DNA from: an uncultured Bacteroidota bacterium
GTDB lineage: Bacteria; Bacteroidota; Bacteroidia; Chitinophagales; Saprospiraceae
Assembly (NCBI GenBank): GCA_903905445.1
Contig: CAIVGO010000253.1
Span: 1-58,630 of the forward strand
DNA: 58,630 nucleotides
Direction: 5' to 3'
Made by a program: the position numbers and the translations under genes. Numbering within the stretch: position 1 is the stretch's first letter; each line of letters opens with the position of its first letter. Shown here piece after piece: positions 40,208-53,363 of this stretch. Under the pieces are notes generated by a model that saw only the letters and a program-made list of their open reading frames with translations, did no database searches and was not told the origin of the DNA.

Positions 40208-40223
40208 TGTTACCTGCGTAACA
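40208..40223 (+). promoter_or_regulatory. Predicted Crp/Fnr-type operator, site 1
   Basis: TGTTACCTGCGTAACA is a perfect 6+6 palindrome with a 4-bp spacer. Its centre (40215.5) is 33.0 bp upstream of the centre of the -7-like box at 40245-40252, the same distance as at sites 2 and 3. It would place the operator near -40, the class II activator position. Predicted to be bound by the Crp/Fnr protein at 50212. Confidence 0.75.
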
Positions 40224-40244: not shown

Positions 40245-40252
40245 GATCTTTG
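40245..40252 (+). promoter_or_regulatory. -7-like box of the glucosidase operon
   Basis: GATCTTTG, one mismatch to TAnnTTTG, with no TTTG -33 element (the position is occupied by the operator flank). A weak core box is what an activator-dependent promoter would show. Confidence 0.5.
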
Positions 40253-40281: not shown

Positions 40282-42912
40282 ATGAAACAATCCGAACAGT
40301 TCCGCCTGCAGGAACATTATTCCGCACAAAAAAACTGGCTTAAATGGGGCCCTTACCTTTCCGAACGCCAATGGGGAACTGTCCGCGAGGATTACTCACC
40401 CAATGGAACGGCCTGGGATTATTTTCCGCACGATCATGCGCGCTCGCGGGTGTATCGCTGGGGGGAAGATGGCATTGCCGGTATTTCGGATGAAATGCAG
40501 CGCATTTGTTTTGCCATTGCTTTGTGGAACGGGAAAGATCCCATTTTGAAAGAGCGCCTATACGGCATGACGGGCAGTGAAGGTAATCACGGAGAAGATG
40601 TGAAAGAACTGTATTATTACTTAGATAATACGCCCTCTCATTCGTATATGAAACATTTGTATAAGTATCCCCAGCAGGCATTTCCTTATGCCGATTTGCA
40701 GGAGCAAAACCGGTGGCGCGATCGCAAGCAAGCAGAATACGAATTGTTGGATACCGGGATTTTTGCAAATGACCAATATTGGGATGTATTTACTGAATAT
40801 GCAAAAGGTTCGGAAGAAGACCTGCTGATCCAAATTACCGTACACAATCGGTTTTCAGAAAGTGCTGAGTTGCATTTATTGCCAACCCTTTGGATGCGCA
40901 ATGCCTGGTCATTCGGGTTGATGGATGCAAAACCGGAAATCCGCAGTGCCGGGAAAAATGAGGTGCTGCTGCAACACGAAAAAGCGGGTCAATATCATTT
41001 CTATTTTCAGGATCCGGCGCTACAGTTATTTACCGAAAATGAAAACAACCAGGAGCGCCTTTGGGGGCAGCCCAATCCGACGCCTTTTGTGAAGGATGCC
41101 TTTCACAGGGCAGTGGTACAGCAGCAATTTGAATTTTTGGCGGAAAAAACGAGCGGTACCAAATTTGCGCCGATGTATAAGGTGCAGGTAGCGGGCGGCG
41201 AAAAGGCTGTTTTTCAATTGCGTTTATCCAAAAATGCCTTAAAAAAGCCATTTGGAAAGGAGTTTAACCAGGTGTTTGAGGATCGAAAACTGGAAGCAGA
41301 CCAGTTTTACCAACAAATACAAACCGAAGCAGCCACAAAAATAACAACGGATCAGCAAAATATTCAACGCCAGGCATACGCGGGTATGTTGTGGTCAAAA
41401 CAGTATTTCAACATTGATATGCCGCGTTGGCTAGATGGCGACCCGGGGCAAATTCCGCCGCCAGCAAGCCGTAAAACGGGGCGCAACAGCCATTGGCGTA
41501 CGCTCAATAACGAGGATATTATTTCCATGCCCGACAAATGGGAATACCCCTGGTACGCCGCTTGGGACCTGGCCTTTCATTGCGTGCCTTTGGCGCAGTT
41601 GGATGCCGAATTTGCCAAAAGCCAATTGGTACTTTTTTTAAGAGAATGGTATATGCACCCCAATGGCCAATTGCCCGCGTATGAATGGGCATTTGGGGAT
41701 GTGAATCCTCCCGTGCATGCATGGGCTTGTTTGCAGGTATTTCAAATTGACAAAGCGAAAACCGGCAAAGAAGATATTGATTTCCTGAAAAAAGTGTTTC
41801 AAAAGTTATTAATCAATTTTACCTGGTGGGTCAACCGGAAAGACCAACAAGGTAACAATGTGTTTGAAGGCGGCTTTTTGGGCTTGGATAATATCGGTGT
41901 GTTTGATCGCTCCAACCAAATTCCGGGCGGCGGCTACCTGGAGCAAGCAGACGGCACCGCATGGATGGCTATGTATTGCCTAAATATGTTGGAAATGGCC
42001 TTGGAGATTGCCCAGCATGATGCCAGTTTTGAAGATGTTGCGACCAAGTTTTTTGAGCATTTTACGTACATCGCCGAAAGTTTGAACCGTATGGGCCACG
42101 ACTGGACCAGTTCGTGGGATAAGGATGAAGCCTTCTTTTATGACATCCTTGCCTTGCCCAACGGATCATACGTTCCTTTGAAAGTGCGGTCGCTGGTAGG
42201 TTTGAGTACCTTGTTTGCAGCCTACATTTTGCCCAAAGAGAAATTGGAAAAATTGCCTGATTTCACCAAAAGGATGCGTTGGTTTCAACGCTATCGTACA
42301 GACAACGGGCAATACTTAGTACTGGAAGAAGACGCTAATAATGGCGATATTTTGCTGTCTTTGATACCGAAAGATCGATTGAGTTCCCTGTTGAACGCAA
42401 TGTTGGATGAAAATGAATTCTTGTCGCCTGGTGGTATCCGATCTATTTCTAAAATCCATAAGGATGGTTATTACGTCCAAATTGACGGAACACAATTTGG
42501 CTTGACCTATGAGCCGGGCGAAAGCACAACAGGTTTGTTTGGCGGTAATTCCAATTGGCGCGGTCCTGTATGGATGCCAATGAACTATCTGTTAATCAGG
42601 GCTTTAAACACGTACGGTACTTTTTATGGCGAACAATATATGACCGAATTCCCGGCAAGATCGGGTCATAAAATCGACTTAAAACAGGTCGCAAATGCAT
42701 TGTCCAAACGGTTGATCTCAATTTTTGAAAAAGACGAACACGGGCATCGACTTGTAAACGGAGACGAGAAAATATACACTGAAAATCCTCATTTTCAGGA
42801 TCTTATCTTGTTTTATGAATATTTCCACGGCGATACGGCAAAAGGAATTGGTGCGAGTCATCAAACAGGTTGGACGGGATTGGTTGCCGATTTGATTGGC
42901 AAGGCGGAGTAA
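40282..42912 (+). CDS. GH63/MGH1-type glucosidase (876 aa)
   Basis: A cytoplasmic protein (no signal peptide) with an N-terminal beta-sandwich (about 1-330) and a C-terminal (alpha/alpha)6 toroid like GH63 enzymes (mannosyl-oligosaccharide glucosidase, mannosyl-/glucosylglycerate hydrolase). WEYPWYAAWDLAFHCVPLAQLD (about residue 415-440) contains the usual catalytic Asp, and FGGNSNWRGPVWMPMNYLLI (about 753-772) the second conserved site. The opening RLQEHYSAQKNWLKWGPYLSERQWGTVREDYS is typical of bacterial 'glucosidase' entries. Substrate unproven; glucosylated solutes or glycogen-derived oligosaccharides are likely from context. The track's 40255 start is a GTG; the ATG at 40282 fits better. 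First gene of a three-gene operon. Confidence 0.88.
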   Translation: MKQSEQFRLQEHYSAQKNWLKWGPYLSERQWGTVREDYSPNGTAWDYFPHDHARSRVYRWGEDGIAGISDEMQRICFAIALWNGKDPILKERLYGMTGSEGNHGEDVKELYYYLDNTPSHSYMKHLYKYPQQAFPYADLQEQNRWRDRKQAEYELLDTGIFANDQYWDVFTEYAKGSEEDLLIQITVHNRFSESAELHLLPTLWMRNAWSFGLMDAKPEIRSAGKNEVLLQHEKAGQYHFYFQDPALQLFTENENNQERLWGQPNPTPFVKDAFHRAVVQQQFEFLAEKTSGTKFAPMYKVQVAGGEKAVFQLRLSKNALKKPFGKEFNQVFEDRKLEADQFYQQIQTEAATKITTDQQNIQRQAYAGMLWSKQYFNIDMPRWLDGDPGQIPPPASRKTGRNSHWRTLNNEDIISMPDKWEYPWYAAWDLAFHCVPLAQLDAEFAKSQLVLFLREWYMHPNGQLPAYEWAFGDVNPPVHAWACLQVFQIDKAKTGKEDIDFLKKVFQKLLINFTWWVNRKDQQGNNVFEGGFLGLDNIGVFDRSNQIPGGGYLEQADGTAWMAMYCLNMLEMALEIAQHDASFEDVATKFFEHFTYIAESLNRMGHDWTSSWDKDEAFFYDILALPNGSYVPLKVRSLVGLSTLFAAYILPKEKLEKLPDFTKRMRWFQRYRTDNGQYLVLEEDANNGDILLSLIPKDRLSSLLNAMLDENEFLSPGGIRSISKIHKDGYYVQIDGTQFGLTYEPGESTTGLFGGNSNWRGPVWMPMNYLLIRALNTYGTFYGEQYMTEFPARSGHKIDLKQVANALSKRLISIFEKDEHGHRLVNGDEKIYTENPHFQDLILFYEYFHGDTAKGIGASHQTGWTGLVADLIGKAE

Positions 42913-42940: not shown

Positions 42941-44962
42941 ATGTTAAAGAATAAAGATAAAGATCCTGACTTCCAGGATCTAAGCTCCAAAGAATGGCTT
43001 TTTACCAATGGCCTGGGCGGGTATGCCGCTTCCACGGTATTAGGCGCCAATACACGGCGTTACCACGGATTATTGGTGGCAGCGCTCAATCCGCCTACCG
43101 GGCGCATGGTACTGGTTTCTAAAGTAGAAGAATCCATTGTTTTCAACCGGGACAGTGCCTTTGCTTTATCGAGCAACCAATACCCTGGGGCGGTACATCC
43201 GGATGGCTTTCAATACTTTAAGTTTTTTGAAAGAAAGCCTTTGCCTACGATGAAATTTGAGGCGCACGGTTGTCATTTGCTCAAAACGGTGTTCATGGTG
43301 CATGGTTCTAATACAACCGTGGTAGAATACGAAAATACCGGCGCTTCCAATTTCAAACTGCGCTTAACGCCGATTTTTGTACACCGCGACGATCACGGCT
43401 TAAACCACCCCGATGCGAAATCGGATTATTGGGTAAAACGGGAAAATGGGTATCAGACATTGTATGCACATTTTGGGGCACCAGCGCTGTATTTTTCCTT
43501 TACTAAAGGGGAATATCTTGAAAACCGGCAATGGTATTACAATTTAGAATATGTTCGAGAACAGGAACGTGGACTGGATTATCGGGAAGATGCTTGCTCG
43601 GTGGCTTCCTTGGAAGTGATCCTTGCGCCTGGAGAAAAGACACATATGGTTTTTTCTACAGATGAAAAAATGATGAAGGAAGATCCGGCAGTGCTGAAAG
43701 TGAATGCTTTGAAGCGGCAAGAGGAAATTGCACAACCATCGGATGGTGATACGTTTTTGCGAGATTTGCTGCTTTCGGGTGACCAGTTTATCGTGCAGCG
43801 CAGGAGCACGGAAGGGTATTCTTTGATTGCAGGTTACCATTGGTTTACCGATTGGGGGCGGGATACGATGATTGCCATGCGTGGACTAACCATCGCCCCT
43901 GGTAAACATGAAATTTCGAAATCCATTTTAGAGACCTTTTTGCGCTCGGTGAATGAGGGCATGTTGCCCAATCGTTTTCCGGATCGTCCGAACGATCCGG
44001 TGGAGTACAACACCATTGACGCAACCTTGTGGCTGTTTGTGGCGCTGTATGAGTATCATCAAAAGTTTCAGGATCTTGATTTTATACGTCAATATTTTGA
44101 TGTTTTAACAGCGATTATTGATCAACATTTTGAGGGCGCGCGGTACCAGATCAAGGTAAATTCGGAGGGGTTTTTATCGGGCGGTGAAGGGCTGGCGCAA
44201 TTGACCTGGATGGATGCACGGGTTGGTGATTTTGTGGTAACGCCCCGTCATGGTGCTCCGGTTGAGATTCAGGCACTTTGGTACAATGCCTTGCGTATTT
44301 ACCAATATTTTGCAGGCACTTTGCAGCGGCCATTTGAGCGCGTTCAAGAAGTTGCGGATAAATTGTTGTTGAATTTTGAGCGTGTTTATGTGCTTGGCAA
44401 TGGAAGTTTGGTGGATGTGGTAGATTTCAGTTCAACACCCCCGAAAAAGGATTCAGCCATTCGTCCGAACCAATTGTATATAGTGAGTTTGCCTTTCTCG
44501 CTTTTAGGTAAAGAAGCCGAAAAGAAAGTAGTGGCCATTGTAAAAGCGCATTTATTGACCGATTATGGTTTGCGCACCCTTTCACCCGAACATACCGATT
44601 TTAAACCCGTATATGAAGGCGATCCATGGCATCGGGATACTGCCTATCATCAAGGTACCGTGTGGCCATTTTTGTTGAGCGAGTACATTACCGCCTATCT
44701 AAAAGTGCATAATTGGTCTGAAAAAGCGCAAAAAGAGGCACTTGCCATGTTGGAGCCTTTAAAAAAGCACTTTTACCAGGATCAATGTATCTTAGGTATT
44801 TCGGAGGTTTTTGACGGGAAATTGCCGCGTGTTGGAAAAGGAACCGTGCAGCAAGCCTGGTCGGTGGCAGCACTGATCAAAGTATTGTTCGAATTGAAAA
44901 AGCTGCAAGGAAAGAAGTCTACTTCCATTCCATTTTCAGTTAAAAAATCGCACTTCCAATAA
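42941..44962 (+). CDS. Amylo-alpha-1,6-glucosidase / glycogen debranching enzyme type (673 aa)
   Basis: N-terminal GDE_N-like beta domain (about 1-260, KEWLFTNGLGGYAASTVLGANTRRYHGLLVAAL) and C-terminal (alpha/alpha)6 domain (about 270-650) with YHWFTDWGRDTMIAMRGLTI (catalytic Asp region), NTIDATLWLFVALYEY, LAQLTWMDARVGDFVVTPRHG and DPWHRDTAYHQGTVWPFLL. It hydrolyses alpha-1,6 branches in glycogen-like polymers. Cytoplasmic. Lies 28 nt after the GH63 gene and 2 nt before the aquaporin, so all three are one transcript. Confidence 0.92.
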   Translation: MLKNKDKDPDFQDLSSKEWLFTNGLGGYAASTVLGANTRRYHGLLVAALNPPTGRMVLVSKVEESIVFNRDSAFALSSNQYPGAVHPDGFQYFKFFERKPLPTMKFEAHGCHLLKTVFMVHGSNTTVVEYENTGASNFKLRLTPIFVHRDDHGLNHPDAKSDYWVKRENGYQTLYAHFGAPALYFSFTKGEYLENRQWYYNLEYVREQERGLDYREDACSVASLEVILAPGEKTHMVFSTDEKMMKEDPAVLKVNALKRQEEIAQPSDGDTFLRDLLLSGDQFIVQRRSTEGYSLIAGYHWFTDWGRDTMIAMRGLTIAPGKHEISKSILETFLRSVNEGMLPNRFPDRPNDPVEYNTIDATLWLFVALYEYHQKFQDLDFIRQYFDVLTAIIDQHFEGARYQIKVNSEGFLSGGEGLAQLTWMDARVGDFVVTPRHGAPVEIQALWYNALRIYQYFAGTLQRPFERVQEVADKLLLNFERVYVLGNGSLVDVVDFSSTPPKKDSAIRPNQLYIVSLPFSLLGKEAEKKVVAIVKAHLLTDYGLRTLSPEHTDFKPVYEGDPWHRDTAYHQGTVWPFLLSEYITAYLKVHNWSEKAQKEALAMLEPLKKHFYQDQCILGISEVFDGKLPRVGKGTVQQAWSVAALIKVLFELKKLQGKKSTSIPFSVKKSHFQ

Positions 44963-44964
44963 CC

Positions 44965-45714
44965 ATGATTCAAGTATTTAAACAAAACTGGCTCAATTAC
45001 GCTATTGAGGCCTGGGCTTTGGGTATGTTTATGTTGTCGGCTACATTTTTTGTATCGATCATTGAATTGCCTTACCTGCCAATTCGAGAAAACATTACCG
45101 ATCCGATGCTGCGTCGTTGTTTGATTGGCATCATGATGGGATGTACCGCAATCGCGTTGATTTATTCGCCCTGGGGCAGGCGTTCAGGTGCGCACATGAA
45201 CCCCGCCGTCACCCTTGCTTTTTTGTTTTTAAGGAAAATAGCACTTTGGGATGCTTTGGCGTATATCATTGCGCAAATAATGGGCGCAGTAGTGGCCATG
45301 CAAATAGCAAAAAGCATTTTTCCGATAATATTGAGCGATCCAGCAGTCAATTTTGTACAAACCCTACCTGGAAAGCAGGGCGTACTGGTTGCATTTATTG
45401 CCGAATACTTCCTAGCCATGGGCATGATCCTGCTGGTTTTATATAGCAGCAACGCGTCGAGAACGGCACCTTACACCGGAATTTTTGCGGGCATGTTGGT
45501 CATGGTTTACATCAGCCTGGAAGCGCCTTTGTCGGGCATGTCGATCAATCCGGCGCGTACCCTGGGTTCGGCCGTCGCTGCACTGCATTTCAACGATTAT
45601 TGGCTGTATTTAACAGCGCCCACGGCCGGTATGCTGAGTGCAGCCATGCTTTGGCGCTGGTACCTGTGTCAAAAATCCGAATTTGTCTGCAGTATGTCGG
45701 GAAAAGAAAAATAA
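44965..45714 (+). CDS. MIP-family aquaporin / glycerol channel (249 aa)
   Basis: Six transmembrane helices and both half-helix NPA boxes: SGAHMNPAVTLAF and SGMSINPARTLGS. The ar/R Arg follows the second NPA as usual. The residues after the first NPA and the overall length (249) fit orthodox aquaporins somewhat better than long-loop glycerol facilitators, but the permeant cannot be decided by eye. Placement behind two glucosidases suggests adjusting water or polyol flux when glucans are broken down (inference). Confidence 0.92.
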   Translation: MIQVFKQNWLNYAIEAWALGMFMLSATFFVSIIELPYLPIRENITDPMLRRCLIGIMMGCTAIALIYSPWGRRSGAHMNPAVTLAFLFLRKIALWDALAYIIAQIMGAVVAMQIAKSIFPIILSDPAVNFVQTLPGKQGVLVAFIAEYFLAMGMILLVLYSSNASRTAPYTGIFAGMLVMVYISLEAPLSGMSINPARTLGSAVAALHFNDYWLYLTAPTAGMLSAAMLWRWYLCQKSEFVCSMSGKEK

Positions 45715-45728
45715 GCTTTTAAGTCCAA

Positions 45729-45744
45729 TGTTACGTAGGTAAAC
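45729..45744 (+). promoter_or_regulatory. Predicted Crp/Fnr-type operator, site 2
   Basis: TGTTACGTAGGTAAAC: a perfect left half (TGTTAC) and a degenerate right half (GTAAAC against GTAACA). Its centre (45736.5) is again 33.0 bp upstream of the centre of the -7 box at 45766-45773. It heads the operon that contains the regulator gene, implying autoregulation. Confidence 0.65.
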
Positions 45745-45765: not shown

Positions 45766-45773
45766 TAATTTTG
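45766..45773 (+). promoter_or_regulatory. -7 box of the SDR/Rieske/regulator operon
   Basis: TAATTTTG, an exact TAnnTTTG match, with no TTTG at -33. The leader to the ATG at 45816 is about 40 nt. Confidence 0.6.
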
Positions 45774-45815: not shown

Positions 45816-46514
45816 ATGAAATCTATCATTGTTACAGGCGCTGCGGGTAACCTCGGCCAGGCTGTTGTTCGTCGATTTGCCGAAGATGGTCATAAAATCT
45901 ATGCGGTTTTGGGCCTGGGAGAGAATTCTCGGCAGTTCAGCGAGACCGCGTTGGCTGGGCGGGTTCATACCCAGTTTTTGAATCTTGCCGATGAAACCGT
46001 TTCGGAGGGTTATGTAAAAAACATCATTGCGGTTGATCCGGCGGTGGAGACGGCGATCTGTATTGTGGGCGGCTGGCAACCGGGTGGTATTGCAGAAACG
46101 ACTGGTTATGAAATTGACAAAATGATCAGCCTGAATTTTACGACGGCCTACAATATCGTGCGCCCATTGATGGATTATTTTGAACGCCGGGGCAGCGGGC
46201 AATTTGTGTTTATTGGCGCGCGTCCGGCCATTAATCCTGCAGAAGGAAAAAGCCAATTGGCTTATGCTTTATCGAAGTCGCTGGTGTTCCGTTTGGCCGA
46301 AATCATCAACGACCAGGGCAAATTCAAGAATATCCGGGCCAGTGTCATTATTCCCTCTTTACTGGACACGCCACAGAATCGCAATGCCTTTCCGGACGCC
46401 GAAGCAGAGGAATGGGTCACCCCAGATGTCGCCGCCGAAACAATTGCCTTCCTTTTAGGAGCAACGGGTGAAAACTTTCGGGAAACCGTCGTAAAATTGT
46501 ACAATCAAGCGTAA
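45816..46514 (+). CDS. Short-chain dehydrogenase/reductase (232 aa)
   Basis: Classical SDR Rossmann fold: cofactor loop TGAAGNLGQAVV (residues 7-18), a mid-sequence FIGARPAIN in place of the usual catalytic-Ser strand, and the active-site YALSK (Tyr-x3-Lys) near residue 150. The cofactor and substrate are not evident. Quite short at the C-terminus for the family. First gene of the six- or seven-gene operon 2; 26 nt before the next gene. Confidence 0.88.
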   Translation: MKSIIVTGAAGNLGQAVVRRFAEDGHKIYAVLGLGENSRQFSETALAGRVHTQFLNLADETVSEGYVKNIIAVDPAVETAICIVGGWQPGGIAETTGYEIDKMISLNFTTAYNIVRPLMDYFERRGSGQFVFIGARPAINPAEGKSQLAYALSKSLVFRLAEIINDQGKFKNIRASVIIPSLLDTPQNRNAFPDAEAEEWVTPDVAAETIAFLLGATGENFRETVVKLYNQA

Positions 46515-46925: not shown

Positions 46926-47993
46926 ATGGCTCTTTCCTACGATCCTGTCCACTGGACACCCCATAAGCGTTTGTACGACCGGATTTTAATTTCGTTCATA
47001 GGGGTTTATCTCTTGTTGTTCATTGGATTACAGTCGGTTTTTCATCCAACATGTACCATCGAAACGACCCTCATTCGAGCAACCGGTACCCTGGGCTTTT
47101 TGATGTTGCACCTGATCCTGATCATTGGTCCGTTGTGCCGCTTCGATCGGCGGTTTTTACCTTTATTGTACAACAGAAGGCATTTTGGGGTAGCCATGTT
47201 TTTGGTAGCGCTAATGCATGGAATACTCAATTTGTTCCAGTTTCATGCCTTGGGTAATGTGGATCCGATGGTTTCCTTGTTTACTTCCAATACACAATAT
47301 GGTTCTTTAGCGCGATTTCCCTTTCAGTCCCTGGGCTTTTTTGCCTTGCTCATCTTGTTTTTGATGGCTGCAACCAGCCACGATTTTTGGCTTAAAAACT
47401 TGGGTCCACGGGTATGGAAAAGTTTACACATGAGCGTTTATTTTGCATATACCTTGTTGGTAATGCATGTGATGTTGGGGGTGATTCAACTTGAAAAATC
47501 GCCCGTGTTGATTGGAATGGTTGGCCTGGGTATGTTTTTAGTGCTTGGGTTTCACGTTGCCGCAGCAATGAAACAACATAAAACAGATGCTGCATCTGAG
47601 CGTGATGCCGATAAAACATCGAACCCGCAAGTACCCGAAGGCTTTGTTTACGCCTGCGAATGGTCAGAAATTGCTATGAATAAAGCCAAAATGCTGATTA
47701 TTGGCAAGGAGAACATTGCCTTATTTCGCTATGAGGACAAAGTTTCGGCAGTCCATAATTTGTGCAAACATCAAAATGGCCCGTTGAGTGAAGGACGCAT
47801 TATTGATGGTTGCATCACTTGTCCATGGCATGGGTACCAATATTTGCCGGAAAATGGGCAATCTCCACCGCCATTTACCGAAAAATTGGCCACTTATGAT
47901 GTGTTTGTATTGGGGTCCAGTGTTTATATAAACCCAAGTCCATTCCCGGAAGGTACAGCGCGGAACCCAGCACAAATTTCTATGTCCATCTAA
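46926..47993 (+). CDS. Ferric-reductase-like membrane protein fused to a Rieske domain (355 aa)
   Basis: Residues 1-220 hold about six transmembrane helices of the ferric reductase/MsrQ (YedZ) type: LMLHLILIIGP, RRHFGVAMFLVALMHGIL and SLHMSVYFAYTLLVMHVML supply paired histidines that probably bind haem b. A linker (about 220-240) leads to a C-terminal Rieske [2Fe-2S] domain with Cys280-x-His282 (NLCKHQNGPLSEG) and Cys299-x2-His302 (TCPWHGYQY). The C-terminal location after the last helix suggests the Rieske domain sits on the cytoplasmic or periplasmic face depending on topology; I favour the cytoplasmic side since no export signal is seen. It would move electrons between a soluble donor and haem across the membrane. 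Substrate unknown. Confidence 0.9.
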   Translation: MALSYDPVHWTPHKRLYDRILISFIGVYLLLFIGLQSVFHPTCTIETTLIRATGTLGFLMLHLILIIGPLCRFDRRFLPLLYNRRHFGVAMFLVALMHGILNLFQFHALGNVDPMVSLFTSNTQYGSLARFPFQSLGFFALLILFLMAATSHDFWLKNLGPRVWKSLHMSVYFAYTLLVMHVMLGVIQLEKSPVLIGMVGLGMFLVLGFHVAAAMKQHKTDAASERDADKTSNPQVPEGFVYACEWSEIAMNKAKMLIIGKENIALFRYEDKVSAVHNLCKHQNGPLSEGRIIDGCITCPWHGYQYLPENGQSPPPFTEKLATYDVFVLGSSVYINPSPFPEGTARNPAQISMSI

Positions 47994-48820: not shown

Positions 48821-50176
48821 ATGTACCGCATAACATTTCAAATCCATTCTTTACCGATCAACACGCCGAAAGACGCGGTCTTTTATTTGGCAGGCAATTT
48901 CAATGAATGGATGCCCAATCATCTGGATTTTTGTTTTAAAATGCAATCTGATGGAGTGTACGAGTTGAATTTTGAAACAGACCTTACACAATTGGAATGC
49001 AAATTAACCCGCGGCGACTGGTCGGCCGAGGAAGGCGACGAATATGGGCGTATGATTCCAAACCGTATATTTCAAGTAGATTCAGAAAGTAGTTTGTATG
49101 TACAGGTAAATTCCTGGGTAGACATTCCTCCTAAGCACCCCGTAGGCATTGTGCGGCTCTTGCACCCAAACCTGTATATGCCTCAATTAGGGAGAAATCG
49201 CCGTATTTGGGCCTGTTTTCCGCCCGATTACTGGATGAATCCGAAAAAGCGTTATCCGGTGGTGTATATGCAGGACGGGCAGAATCTTTTTGACAATCCG
49301 GATGCAAAATTTGGTTCCTGGGACATTGACAAAGCCATGCACCAGTTATTTTTAAAACACCCCATGCTGCAAGCGCAAGCGCCCATTTTAATTGGCATTG
49401 AAAACGGGGAACATCACCGCATTGACGAATACGCCCCCTGGCCCAATCCCGAACACGGCGGCGGGGAAGGCGGGGCTTATCTTGATTTTATTTGCGAGAC
49501 GCTCAAGCCATACATCGATACGCATTTACGTACCCGTGTTGAACAGGAACATACCGGAATCATCGGCAGCAGCATGGGAGGCTTATTTTCCTTGTATGCT
49601 GTTTTGGAAAAACCGGATGTATTTGGTTTTGCGGGTGTCTTTTCACCCGCTTTATGGTTTTCAGAAAACCTGTTTGATTGGGTTAAATCCCGCATACCTA
49701 CCCAGCCAGTAAAAATATTGTTGATGGCCGGACAGCAGGAAAGTGAAGAAATGGTCGGCCAACTGCTGGATTTGTACGAAATTTTGTTGGAGACAGGTTA
49801 CAATGAGGATTTGATGCACTATGATTTACACTCCGATGGCACCCATTCCGAGCATTTTTGGGCACGCGAATTTGAACATGCTTTAGCCTGGTTACTGGGT
49901 GGCATGCCCGATCATTCGCATGGTATTTCCGACGAAATGATTCAATTCGGCTTAGACGCTGACAAAAAAGAATTGCTTATCAAAGTTGCACCGCGTTTGA
50001 AACATGCACAATTGGAAGTGCGCGATTACTGTCACAATCGCCAGTTCAAGCATCATTTAGGGCAAATTGATAACCGCGTACCGTATGCCGACTGGGAAGA
50101 CTGTATTTTTTCAATCCGTATGGTGTTGGGAAGCGACCTGGTTTTTTCCCGGCGTGTACCTTTAAATCATGTGTAA
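48821..50176 (+). CDS. Putative esterase with glycogen-binding-like N-terminal domain (451 aa)
   Basis: Residues 1-105 look like a CBM20/CBM48-type starch/glycogen-binding sandwich (FQIHSLPINTPKDAVFYLAGNFNEWMPN). Residues 120-360 form an alpha/beta hydrolase of the esterase D/Fes/IroE type (PF00756): YPVVYMQDGQNLFD, the nucleophile elbow GSSMGG (Ser251), and DGTHSEHFW with the catalytic His. A C-terminal extension (365-451) is unassigned. No signal peptide, so cytoplasmic. Deacylation of a sugar- or glycogen-linked ester is the natural guess; the family also contains siderophore esterases. Second-to-last gene of operon 2. Confidence 0.85.
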   Translation: MYRITFQIHSLPINTPKDAVFYLAGNFNEWMPNHLDFCFKMQSDGVYELNFETDLTQLECKLTRGDWSAEEGDEYGRMIPNRIFQVDSESSLYVQVNSWVDIPPKHPVGIVRLLHPNLYMPQLGRNRRIWACFPPDYWMNPKKRYPVVYMQDGQNLFDNPDAKFGSWDIDKAMHQLFLKHPMLQAQAPILIGIENGEHHRIDEYAPWPNPEHGGGEGGAYLDFICETLKPYIDTHLRTRVEQEHTGIIGSSMGGLFSLYAVLEKPDVFGFAGVFSPALWFSENLFDWVKSRIPTQPVKILLMAGQQESEEMVGQLLDLYEILLETGYNEDLMHYDLHSDGTHSEHFWAREFEHALAWLLGGMPDHSHGISDEMIQFGLDADKKELLIKVAPRLKHAQLEVRDYCHNRQFKHHLGQIDNRVPYADWEDCIFSIRMVLGSDLVFSRRVPLNHV

Positions 50177-50211: not shown

Positions 50212-50892
50212 ATGAATCAGAAAAGCGTCTGGTTTTTTGAGGAAGTCGATTTGTACGAAATGTTGTGTCCGTACAAATACAAAGACCATTTGAAAACACA
50301 TCCCTTAAGTTGTTACAACAAAACCGACTTCTTATTCATGGAAGGAGACCCTGTACGCGAAATATTTTTAGTTGCGGAGGGCAAGGTCAAAGTCAGTTTT
50401 TATGATCCGGAGGGCAACGAACAGGTGCTCGCATTTTTGTCTAAGGGCGAAATTTTGGGTGAAACCGCCCTGATTGGACAGGCCCGTTACCGCGAGTTTG
50501 CACAAGCGGTAGTGGATCGTACCATGATTTGTAGATTAGGGGTGGATAAAGCCAGAGAACTGATGCGCGATTATGTGCCCTTTTCGCTCACAATTACCAA
50601 ACGTTTTGGCGAAAAATCCCAACGCCTTGAGCGCCGATTGCAAATTCTATTGTTCAAAGATGCCCGCCAACGCCTGGTCGCGTTTCTAAAAGACCTTTGT
50701 CGGGATATTGGCACCGCACACGCCAGTGGCACCAAAGTGGAATTGGACATTACCCAAAGCGATATTGCGGCGCTGATCGGGGCTTCCCGCAAAACTGTTT
50801 CACTTTTATTTACCGATCTTGAAATGGAGGGCGTCGTGCGGTTTAATGGCCGGAAAGAGTTATTTGTGTCCAATGTGGAACAATTAATTTGA
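50212..50892 (+). CDS. Crp/Fnr-family transcriptional regulator (226 aa)
   Basis: N-terminal cyclic-nucleotide-binding-like beta-roll (about 20-115, MEGDPVREIFLVAEGKVKVSFYDPEGNE, LSKGEILGETALIG), a long dimerisation helix (about 115-145) and a C-terminal winged helix-turn-helix (about 170-215, ITQSDIAALIGASRKTVSLLF). Four cysteines (19, 34, 107, 163) are not spaced like the FNR [4Fe-4S] ligands, so it is not a classical oxygen sensor; no complete cAMP-contact set is seen. The recognition helix reads ASRKTV where E. coli CRP has CSRETV: the Glu that reads the inner G:C of TGTGA is replaced by Lys, consistent with the TGTTA-N6-TAACA sites found before three units around it. Last gene of operon 2. 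Confidence 0.93.
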   Translation: MNQKSVWFFEEVDLYEMLCPYKYKDHLKTHPLSCYNKTDFLFMEGDPVREIFLVAEGKVKVSFYDPEGNEQVLAFLSKGEILGETALIGQARYREFAQAVVDRTMICRLGVDKARELMRDYVPFSLTITKRFGEKSQRLERRLQILLFKDARQRLVAFLKDLCRDIGTAHASGTKVELDITQSDIAALIGASRKTVSLLFTDLEMEGVVRFNGRKELFVSNVEQLI

Positions 50893-50906: not shown

Positions 50907-50922
50907 TGTAACCCCCGTAACA
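50907..50922 (+). promoter_or_regulatory. Predicted Crp/Fnr-type operator, site 3
   Basis: TGTAACCCCCGTAACA: 11 of 12 half-site positions match the palindrome. Its centre (50914.5) is 33.0 bp upstream of the -7-like box centre (50947.5), identical to sites 1 and 2. It lies directly after the regulator stop and heads the GMC operon. Confidence 0.75.
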
Positions 50923-50943: not shown

Positions 50944-50951
50944 CACCTTTG
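50944..50951 (+). promoter_or_regulatory. -7-like box of the GMC oxidoreductase operon
   Basis: CACCTTTG, one mismatch to TAnnTTTG, no -33 TTTG. The leader to the ATG at 50981 is about 25 nt. Confidence 0.5.
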
Positions 50952-50980: not shown

Positions 50981-52519
50981 ATGCAACAATTTGATTTTAT
51001 CATCATCGGAACGGGCGCAGGGGGAGGAACCTTGGCCCACCAACTGGCACCAAGCGGTAAGCGCATTTTAATTTTGGAGCGCGGCGATTTTTTGCCCAAA
51101 GAAAAAGAAAACTGGGATCCAATTGCCGTTGCCCAGGGACGATACAAGACCACGGAACTTTGGCGCGACCGCAACCAGCAATTGTTTTCACCTTATCAGC
51201 ATTACTGGGTGGGTGGAAACACAAAAATGTACGGTGGTGCGCTGTTGCGTTTGCGGGAACAGGATTTTGAAGCCCGGCCCCATTTCGATGGCGTTTCGCC
51301 AGCCTGGCCGCTCAAATATGCCGATTTTGCCCCTTGGTACGATCAGGCTGAAGCCCTTTATGCCGTACATGGCACCCGTGGACAAGACCCAACCGAGCCC
51401 CCAGCGGATACCGATTATCCATTTCCAGCCTTGCCTTTTGAACCACGTATGGAAACCCTGGCTACCCAAATACGCCAGCAAGGTTACCATCCAAGTGCCA
51501 TTCCACTCGCCATTCGGTTACCAGAAGATGCGCAGGGTTCTGTTACAGACCGCATCAACATGGAATTGTACGATGGTTATCCCGACCCAACCGGTGCAAA
51601 AGCGGATAGCCATGTGGTAGGCATTCAAGGAGCGTTACAGCACCCCAATGTGTCGCTTTTAACCAACCGTAAAGCATTGAAAATCAATACAGATTCCAGC
51701 GGTAAACGGGTCGAAAGTGTTACTGTAACGCATAACGGCACAGAAGAAACCTATTTTGCCGACACCATCGTAGTGGCTTGTGGCGCTGTAAATTCGGCCG
51801 CTTTATTGCTCAATTCTGCGAATGAACAACATCCGAACGGGCTGGCCAACAGCAGTGGCCTAGTGGGTCGCAACCTGATGGTACACAACAACGGCATCGT
51901 GTTGGCTTATTCGGCTACTCCAAATCCTTCCAAGTTTCAAAAAGCCATCCTGATTGCCGATTTTTACCATGGCGCTCCCGATAGCCTTTACCCGTTGGGT
52001 TCCATTCAAAATATGGGAAAAGCCGATCCATTGTTGTTGATTGACGCAGTAGGGGATGATATGGACACAAACGGCCGCGATATGGACCATTTTGCAGGTC
52101 ATATTGTCGATTTCTTTATCACTGCTGAAGATTTGCCACAACCCGAAAATCGCGTACTCGTAGATGAAACCGGCGAAATTCAGGTGCATTACACGGCCAA
52201 TAACCTGGAAGCCTACCAGCGTTTGCATGCTAAATTGGTGCAAATTATGGATCAAGTTGCCGAACAGGAAGGGGTAGGAGAGAGCACCAAATATTACGGT
52301 TTTAAACTTGGATCAGGTGGGGTGAGCCATCAAAATGGAACTTGTCGCTTTGGTACGGATCCTAAAGAATCGGTACTTGATCTTCATTGCAAAGCCCACG
52401 ACCTCGACAATCTGTATGTGGTAGATACTTCTTTTTTCCCTTCTTCCGGCGCGGTGAATCCATCGCTTACCGCCATGGCCAATGCTCTGCGGGTAGGCGC
52501 ACATCTGCTTGAAAATTAA
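50981..52519 (+). CDS. GMC-family FAD-dependent oxidoreductase (512 aa)
   Basis: FAD-binding N-terminus DFIIIGTGAGGGTLAHQLA then LILERG (residues 4-35), a GMC_N middle (HYWVGGNTKMYGGALLRL) and the C-terminal GMC signature (GVSHQNGTCRFGTDP, VVDTSFFPSSGAVNPSLTAMANALRVG) with the catalytic His. The family oxidises alcohol groups of sugars and polyols (glucose oxidase, choline dehydrogenase, fructose/gluconate dehydrogenases). No signal peptide or Tat motif, so cytoplasmic unless partnered. The track extends it to a TTG at 50924, inside the predicted promoter; the ATG at 50981 is the right start. First gene of operon 3. Confidence 0.93.
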   Translation: MQQFDFIIIGTGAGGGTLAHQLAPSGKRILILERGDFLPKEKENWDPIAVAQGRYKTTELWRDRNQQLFSPYQHYWVGGNTKMYGGALLRLREQDFEARPHFDGVSPAWPLKYADFAPWYDQAEALYAVHGTRGQDPTEPPADTDYPFPALPFEPRMETLATQIRQQGYHPSAIPLAIRLPEDAQGSVTDRINMELYDGYPDPTGAKADSHVVGIQGALQHPNVSLLTNRKALKINTDSSGKRVESVTVTHNGTEETYFADTIVVACGAVNSAALLLNSANEQHPNGLANSSGLVGRNLMVHNNGIVLAYSATPNPSKFQKAILIADFYHGAPDSLYPLGSIQNMGKADPLLLIDAVGDDMDTNGRDMDHFAGHIVDFFITAEDLPQPENRVLVDETGEIQVHYTANNLEAYQRLHAKLVQIMDQVAEQEGVGESTKYYGFKLGSGGVSHQNGTCRFGTDPKESVLDLHCKAHDLDNLYVVDTSFFPSSGAVNPSLTAMANALRVGAHLLEN

Positions 52520-52547: not shown

Positions 52548-53363
52548 ATGTACCAGCAACCCAACAATCGCCTCAAAAAACAAACCTGCATTGTTACCGG
52601 TGCAAATTCAGGAATCGGTCGCGCCATTGTGTATGCCATGGCCCGTGAAGGCGCTAATGTGGTGGTCAATTATGTTTTTGGCGATGAAGCAGCCCAGCAA
52701 ATTGTGGATGAAATCACCCAATTGGGCGGACATGCCATTGCCTATAAAGCCGACGTCAGCAAAGAGGATCAAGTCATTGCGATGTTCCAGGAAACCATTT
52801 CCACTTTTGGCACCGTGGATATTTTAGTCAACAATGCCGGATTGCAGCGCGACGCCGCATTTCACGAAATGAGCCTGAAGGATTGGCAATTCGTATTAGA
52901 TGTAAACCTCACCGGACAGTTCTTGTGCGCGCGTGAGGCAGTGCGTGAATTTTTGCGCAGAGGTCCGCGTCCCGACGTTTCGGTCGCTTTGGGTAAGATC
53001 ATCTGCATGTCATCTGTGCATGAAGTAATACCTTGGGGGGGCCATGTAAATTACGCGGCATCCAAGGGCGGCGTCATGCTGATGATGAAATCCTTGGCGC
53101 AAGAATACGGCCCTATGAAAATACGGGTCAATTCCATCGGACCGGGTGCCATCAAAACGCCCATCAACCGATCAGCGTGGGAAACGCCGGAAGCCGAGCA
53201 AAAACTATTGGAACTCATTCCTTATTCGCGGGTGGGAGAAACCTCGGATATCGGTGCAGCAGCCGTGTGGTTGGCTTCAGATGAATCTGATTATATCCAC
53301 GGCACCACCATTTTTGTAGATGGTGGTATGACGCTTTATCCAGGTTTTACAGAAAACGGGTAA
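52548..53363 (+). CDS. Glucose 1-dehydrogenase-like SDR (271 aa)
   Basis: Classical SDR: TGANSGIGRAIVYAM (NAD(P) loop), LVNNAGLQRDA, ICMSSVHEVIPWGGHVNYAASKGG (catalytic Ser, Tyr-x3-Lys) and IKTPINRSAWE. Closest to glucose/ribitol 1-dehydrogenase types. Together with the GMC enzyme 28 nt upstream it would oxidise sugars or sugar alcohols. The pairing of a GMC oxidoreductase, a glucose-dehydrogenase-like SDR and a GH63 glucosidase is, from memory, repeated in several bacterial stress-associated gene clusters. Confidence 0.92.
   Translation: MYQQPNNRLKKQTCIVTGANSGIGRAIVYAMAREGANVVVNYVFGDEAAQQIVDEITQLGGHAIAYKADVSKEDQVIAMFQETISTFGTVDILVNNAGLQRDAAFHEMSLKDWQFVLDVNLTGQFLCAREAVREFLRRGPRPDVSVALGKIICMSSVHEVIPWGGHVNYAASKGGVMLMMKSLAQEYGPMKIRVNSIGPGAIKTPINRSAWETPEAEQKLLELIPYSRVGETSDIGAAAVWLASDESDYIHGTTIFVDGGMTLYPGFTENG

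Follow-up and report, generated by a model that had tools for sequence, protein, structure and literature searches.

A TGTTA-type operator variant in the Crp/Fnr family and its fixed distance to the -7 box at a Saprospiraceae locus

The σ factor of Bacteroidota uses unusual -33 and -7 boxes and, to our knowledge, the activator-dependent promoters of this phylum are poorly characterized. Substitutions of Glu181 in Escherichia coli CRP with an altered preference at base 7 of the operator were reportedly described by Ebright and colleagues in 1984, a report that is not used as evidence here. In CRP, the outer G of TGTGA is bound by Arg180, and the inner G:C pair (base pair 7) is bound jointly by Glu181 and Arg185 (PMC11253593). 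Other family members use other half-sites: the CooA operator is TGTCGGCNNGCCGACA (TGTCG), and HcpR sites are of the TTGTGA or the TTTGAC type, a shift accompanied by a change of Arg180 (PMC545781). On the promoter side, the -7 box of Bacteroidota is TAnnTTTG (PMC2483708). The locus described here lies in the window, that is, the whole 58,630-nucleotide stretch of DNA that was analysed (contig CAIVGO010000253.1, from an uncultured Saprospiraceae bacterium), and it presents a new operator variant within the known Crp/Fnr family, together with a useful promoter rule.

The regulator and its recognition helix

The regulator, a Crp/Fnr family protein of 226 aa with a Lys-type recognition helix, is encoded on the forward strand at 50212..50892, directly downstream of an esterase gene (48821..50176, +). 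Its assignment relies on orthologues and on three Pfam domains that score above cut-off and define the CRP/FNR superfamily: cNMP_binding (PF00027, E 1e-17), HTH_Crp_2 (PF13545, 2e-13) and Crp (PF00325, 5e-5). Within this superfamily, the protein falls below the NCBIfam cut-offs for both the CRP equivalog (76.7 bits vs 266) and FNR (63.7 bits vs 228), and no N-terminal CysX2CysX5Cys cluster of the FNR type occurs in its sequence. Alignment suggests that the Arg-Ser/Thr pair of the cAMP-phosphate site is not conserved. Two cysteines, Cys19 and Cys107, are invariant in 11/11 Lys-type proteins as well as in 44/44 proteins of the Pro type described below; a redox or metal role is possible for them.

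The helix-turn-helix (Pfam Crp, residues 180-208) spans 50749..50835 (+), and its recognition helix, GASRKTVSLLF, aligns without gaps with GASRETV of mycobacterial CRP in an alignment to solved CRPs. Arg193 (codon 50788..50790, +) corresponds to CRP Arg180 and is invariant in 14/14 aligned proteins. Lys194 (50791..50793, +) corresponds to Glu181 and is fixed in the Lys clade, with Pro or Ser in the sister clade, Gln in the outgroups and Glu in a single relative (L028), whilst Leu198 (50803..50805, +) takes the place of Arg185, which in CRP contacts base pair 7 as well (PMC11253593). The gapless alignment confirms an earlier, sequence-only reading of the locus in that Lys stands where CRP has Glu181 and Arg180 is kept. 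That reading had singled out the change of Glu, which is real, but it missed the replacement of Arg185 by Leu, whose codon lies just outside the interval it gave. Given the contact map of CRP and the gapless alignment, both residues that bind the inner pair are changed, so that the E. coli-type contact set Arg180-Glu181-Arg185 is reduced here to its arginine at 180.

Orthologues are 76-94% identical in six genomes, all of which retain SRKTVSLLF, and 47-55% identical in four more. One contig labelled Thermoanaerobaculia (Acidobacteriota) (L037, JAKLJF010000048.1) carries an 80%-identical Crp together with the Saprospiraceae cluster; mis-binning of a Saprospiraceae-like contig is the probable explanation, and leaving it out alters no result.

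Operators and the 21-bp distance to the -7 box

The predicted operator of the Lys-type regulator, TGTTAC-N4-GTAACA (i.e. TGTTA-N6-TAACA), has the dyad symmetry, 5-bp arms and 6-bp gap typical of the CRP/FNR superfamily, in which FNR-type sites have a 4-bp gap. A scan of the window places it at three positions on the forward strand, each followed at a distance of 21 bp by a -7 box. Operator 1 (TGTTACCTGCGTAACA, 40208..40223, +; box GATCTTTG, 40245..40252, +) precedes the genes for a GH63-like hydrolase, a glycogen debranching enzyme and an aquaporin; it is kept in L083, and its counterpart in L079 also precedes a GH63 gene. Operator 2 (TGTTACGTAGGTAAAC, 45729..45744, +; box TAATTTTG, 45766..45773, +), whose promoter-side half is imperfect, lies before a short-chain dehydrogenase (SDR) gene, and the same site is present in L083. 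Operator 3 (TGTAACCCCCGTAACA, 50907..50922, +; box CACCTTTG, 50944..50951, +) lies between crp and the gene for a GMC oxidoreductase, is found in orthologues as well, and has A instead of T in one half. The bare palindrome with up to two mismatches is uninformative in the window, its 39 matches against 32 expected being at chance level; when the -7 box at +21 is included, exactly three matches score 16-17 of 18, and 20 shuffles never exceeded 15.

Conservation of the operator follows the regulator. TGTTAC-N4-GTAACA is present in 10/11 genomes with a Lys-type regulator, it or a near-match precedes the GMC gene in 6/6 close orthologues and in L008 and L009, and the palindrome still adjoins crp in Lys-type relatives at 47-52% identity. 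These rows are related and their counts are not independent, since Lys arose once on the tree. The perfect palindrome is rare, with 25 copies in 100 family genomes, and 12/18 perfect sites of the 11 Lys genomes lie no further than 12 kb from crp. No perfect copy was found within 12 kb of crp in G091 and G101, of which the latter has a one-mismatch site near crp and the former has its sites in other parts of the genome. Within the window's own genome, every further site with at most one mismatch lies inside a gene, with a single exception. At four loci (L039, L084, L085 and L086), the operator accompanies the GMC gene and not crp; between crp and the operator, L039, L084 and L086 carry an extra gene of ~300 aa, and L085 carries other extra DNA.

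The distance between operator and promoter is nearly invariant. NAnnTTTG stands at exactly +21 bp from the palindrome at 24/26 Lys-clade sites, including all three in the window, and TAnnTTTG does so at 39/39 sites of the Pro clade (loci L116-L145 and L164-L177); the palindrome at 9214 in L077 and the second palindrome of L087 (9727) have no -7 box at +21. In genomes without the Lys-type protein, the perfect palindrome is accompanied by a +21 box in 0/20 cases (0/12 in the family and 0/8 in Pro-type genomes), and among 24 further perfect sites only those of L056 and L057, both distant sites in Lys genomes, have one. When the spacing was varied from 17 to 26 over all loci, the sole peak was at 21, with 29 matches against 2-9 elsewhere; for perfect palindromes alone, 19 matches were obtained at 21 and 0-2 at other spacings. 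Taken together, the conservation in orthologues, the rarity of perfect copies and the fixed geometry of the -7 box establish the three window sites (40208, 45729 and 50907) as real, and thus bear out the TGTTA-N6-TAACA sites that had been proposed from the sequence. The lock between operator and -7 box extends across clades, and Crp/Fnr activation in Bacteroidota may obey it in general.

The genes behind these sites are the predicted targets of the regulator in the window. Operator 1 is followed on the forward strand by the MGH1-like/GH63-like glycoside hydrolase (40282..42912), the glycogen debranching enzyme (GDE_N/GDE_C, 42941..44962) and an aquaporin-family channel (MIP, 44965..45714). For the GH63-like gene, the longest open frame begins at GTG 40255, yet ATG 40282 is the likelier start, because GTG 40255 nearly coincides with the predicted transcription start. 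The other predicted targets, all on the same strand, are a short-chain dehydrogenase (45816..46514), a protein joining a ferric-reductase-like (MsrQ-like) membrane domain to a Rieske domain (46926..47993), the GMC oxidoreductase (ATG 50981; 50981..52519) and a second, glucose-1-dehydrogenase-like short-chain dehydrogenase (52548..53363). Elsewhere, Lys-type operators are followed by methionine sulfoxide reductase genes (msrA/msrB) in L057 and L087, by genes for a YHS/HbpS haem-related protein (L037) and YHS proteins (L085 and L086), and by a Na+/H+ exchanger gene in L077. The L056 operator, which is followed by a DoxX-like gene, overlaps the end of an msrB-like reading frame. For the signal that induces the regulator, our best guess is a redox or oxidative one, a guess that could well fall either way.

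Residues and bases across the clades

The clade sister to the Lys clade (support 96/71) has Pro at position 181, with the helix TSRPTLNILLNEL, and shares with the Lys clade the N-terminal half and the two invariant cysteines; Flavobacteriaceae-like genomes (f55) carry this Pro type. The palindrome of the clade, TGTTAG-N4-CTAACA, adjoins crp in nearly all loci, most often 4 bp downstream of the stop codon, and only a few loci have no site beside crp. Given this position, a terminator was considered and ruled out by the -7 boxes at +21 and by second copies before other genes away from crp. Right behind the Pro-clade operator lies a gene for a lipoprotein that carries an RskA_C-like domain (L116 2250-3128 and orthologues), and the second gene encodes a thioredoxin-like protein.

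This clade bears on which residue goes with which base. Its Pro/Ser proteins use TGTTA at 34/39 sites, all with TAnnTTTG at +21, and Pro changed to Ser three separate times with T at base 7 unaltered. A link between Lys and T is thereby refuted: T at base 7 is common to the Lys and Pro types, and Lys is probably not the change that matches it. The proposed match between the protein and DNA changes consequently survives only in part, in that the regulator and the TGTTA sites do belong together, and as independent support for this pairing it does not stand either, given the single origin of Lys. The comparison of helices and motifs across orthologues that had been suggested as a check returned the same helix and the same site type in close orthologues, but the clades differ at base 9 and not at T7. 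The tempting reading of one residue for one base is thus corrected by clade contrasts.

At base 9, two pairs further inward than base 7 and inside the motif of the sequence-only reading, the difference is consistent, with TGTTAC in the Lys clade and TGTTAG in proteins with Pro or Ser. TGTTAGN4CTAACA has no match in any of the 11 Lys genomes; among the 20 Pro genomes it has 23 matches, spread over 16 genomes, and 15 of these matches lie beside crp, whilst TGTTACN4GTAACA is never found beside crp in Pro genomes. As the two clades have different residues at 181, 183 and 184, base 9 is not assignable to one of these positions; it may be read by residue 184, or by Lys181 if this contacts the G that faces C9. 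Base 7 shows no association with residue 181 and tracks residue 185 instead, with Ile or Val accompanying T, and Leu, Ala or Ser accompanying A: for each of the four Pro-type proteins in which 185 is Leu, Ala or Ser, one or both operator halves carry A at base 7. This association (Fisher p 6e-5) corresponds to just two separate changes on the tree and is suggestive only. Residue 185 alone is not the full code, because Leu185 accompanies T in the Lys clade but A in L164.

Other Crp types were assigned operators by the composite of palindrome and -7 box. L028 (Glu181/Lys185; 36% identical and with the same conserved cysteines) has TGTGAACCAGCTCACA, of the TGTGA type. It is the one Glu relative encountered, and no Glu orthologue with TGTTA sites, the counterexample named in the sequence-only reading, was found. 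L178 (Gln181/Thr185) has TGTCA-N6-TGACA, and L162 and L163 have TGTAA. These are single cases, but 4 matches were obtained at a spacing of 21 against 0 or 1 at any other, and their operators fit the published precedents of CooA and HcpR (PMC545781) and of CprK (PMC2610375). Among 25 Gln-type crp genes, no shared palindrome was found within 1.5 kb, and family searches with the TGTAA-type L104 and L113 retrieved the query alone each time. It is possible, if still doubtful, that these proteins form a natural two-position series within a Bacteroidota Crp/Fnr lineage, with base 7 set jointly by residues 181 and 185 (G for Glu/Lys, C for Gln/Thr, T for Lys/Leu or Pro/Ile-Val, A for Pro/Ala-Ser-Leu), base 9 set on the side of 181/184 (C for Lys/Ser, G for Pro/Asn), and operators locked 21 bp before the -7 box, so that a composite search would find the operators of most Bacteroidota Crp/Fnr proteins.

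Mechanism, rival readings and known systems

Considered as a whole, the locus is very probably explained by a Crp/Fnr activator acting mainly on its own neighbourhood, via TGTTAC-N4-GTAACA and in the class II manner. With the -7 box fixed at 21 bp, the operator centre is predicted at about -40, which is the class II position of CRP, and for this reason the regulator is read as an activator. From the observed helix, sites, conservation, fixed spacing and clade contrasts, we infer binding, activation as opposed to repression, and residue-base contacts, as follows. A dimer would bind TGTTAC-N4-GTAACA with its centre ~40 bp upstream of the transcription start and would activate the three promoters of the GH63, SDR and GMC operons, whose operators end exactly 21 bp before the -7 box. 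Arg180 would still read the outer G, and the loss of both Glu181 and Arg185 would lift the demand for G at base 7, where a branched aliphatic residue at 185 would go with T, perhaps by packing on the thymine methyl. Lys or Pro at 181, or Ser or Asn at 184, would accompany C or G at base 9.

One rival is that Lys, in replacing Glu181, directly reads T:A at base 7, so that a single Glu-to-Lys change turns TGTGA into TGTTA. CRP Glu181 does contact base pair 7 (PMC11253593), changes at the same position accompany the same base when CprK is compared with FNR (PMC2610375), and T occupies most half-sites throughout the Lys clade; nevertheless, this reading is improbable, since T persists with Pro and through each change to Ser, one half of the window's GMC site carries A, the loss extends to Arg185, which shares the contact to that pair in CRP, and Lys arose only once. 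Base 7 might instead escape side-chain readout altogether, a flexible step of T or A followed by A being selected for bendability once Glu181 and Arg185 were gone. The strict outer bases of CprK have been attributed to indirect readout (PMC2610375), and variants with T7 and with A7 are both found in close relatives, but the A7 variants accompany changes of residue 185 and are almost absent otherwise, which suggests some role for a side chain and leaves bendability rather unlikely.

The placement of the operator, which covers or abuts the expected position of the -33 TTTG, could also suit a repressor that blocks the -33 region. However, a distance to the -7 box held rigidly at 21 bp is what contact with polymerase would demand, and not blocking, many Lys-clade -7 boxes are weak, with C or G as their first base, as in activator-dependent promoters, and a fixed placement of the -41.5 type is the classic position of a class II activator; repression is thus quite improbable, slightly more so than direct reading of T by Lys. 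Least probable of all would be that another Crp/Fnr protein, such as the common Gln-type, uses the sites and that the Lys-type regulator has some other target. The window's genome (G000) does hold further Crp/Fnr genes, e.g. C29, C206 and C338, yet the Gln-type is present in most family genomes lacking the Lys-type, where none of the 12 palindromes has the +21 promoter, and the sites cluster around the Lys-type gene.

The fixed 21-bp distance from operator to -7 box across several Crp/Fnr clades offers a computable signature for direct targets in uncultured Bacteroidota. With one promoter position but different operators, the Lys, Pro/Ser, Gln and Glu clades amount to a natural experiment on two helix positions and two bases.

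Among known systems, the Crp homologue of Porphyromonas gingivalis is likewise a Crp-type protein of Bacteroidota and cAMP-independent; the accessible part of its account reports no defined operator, and the two proteins are compared by description only (PMC12040651). CooA and HcpR are family precedents for operator shifts, but with other base changes and in other phyla (PMC545781). In CprK (TTAAT-N4-ATTAA), Glu is lost at the same helix position and G:C at the same pair, although there the residue is Val and not Lys, and the changes extend to the outer bases and to the spacing class, which is FNR-like (PMC2610375). E. coli CRP (TGTGA-N6-TCACA) differs in having Glu181 where Lys is found here, Arg185 where Leu is found, and TGTGAT in place of TGTTAC, and its cAMP-phosphate site residues appear not to be conserved in this regulator (REFAQ-type stretch). 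Both nevertheless share the domain order, the half-site spacing and the pairing of Arg180 with the outer TG, and class II activation by E. coli CRP proceeds from an operator ~40 bp upstream of the start, as is predicted here.
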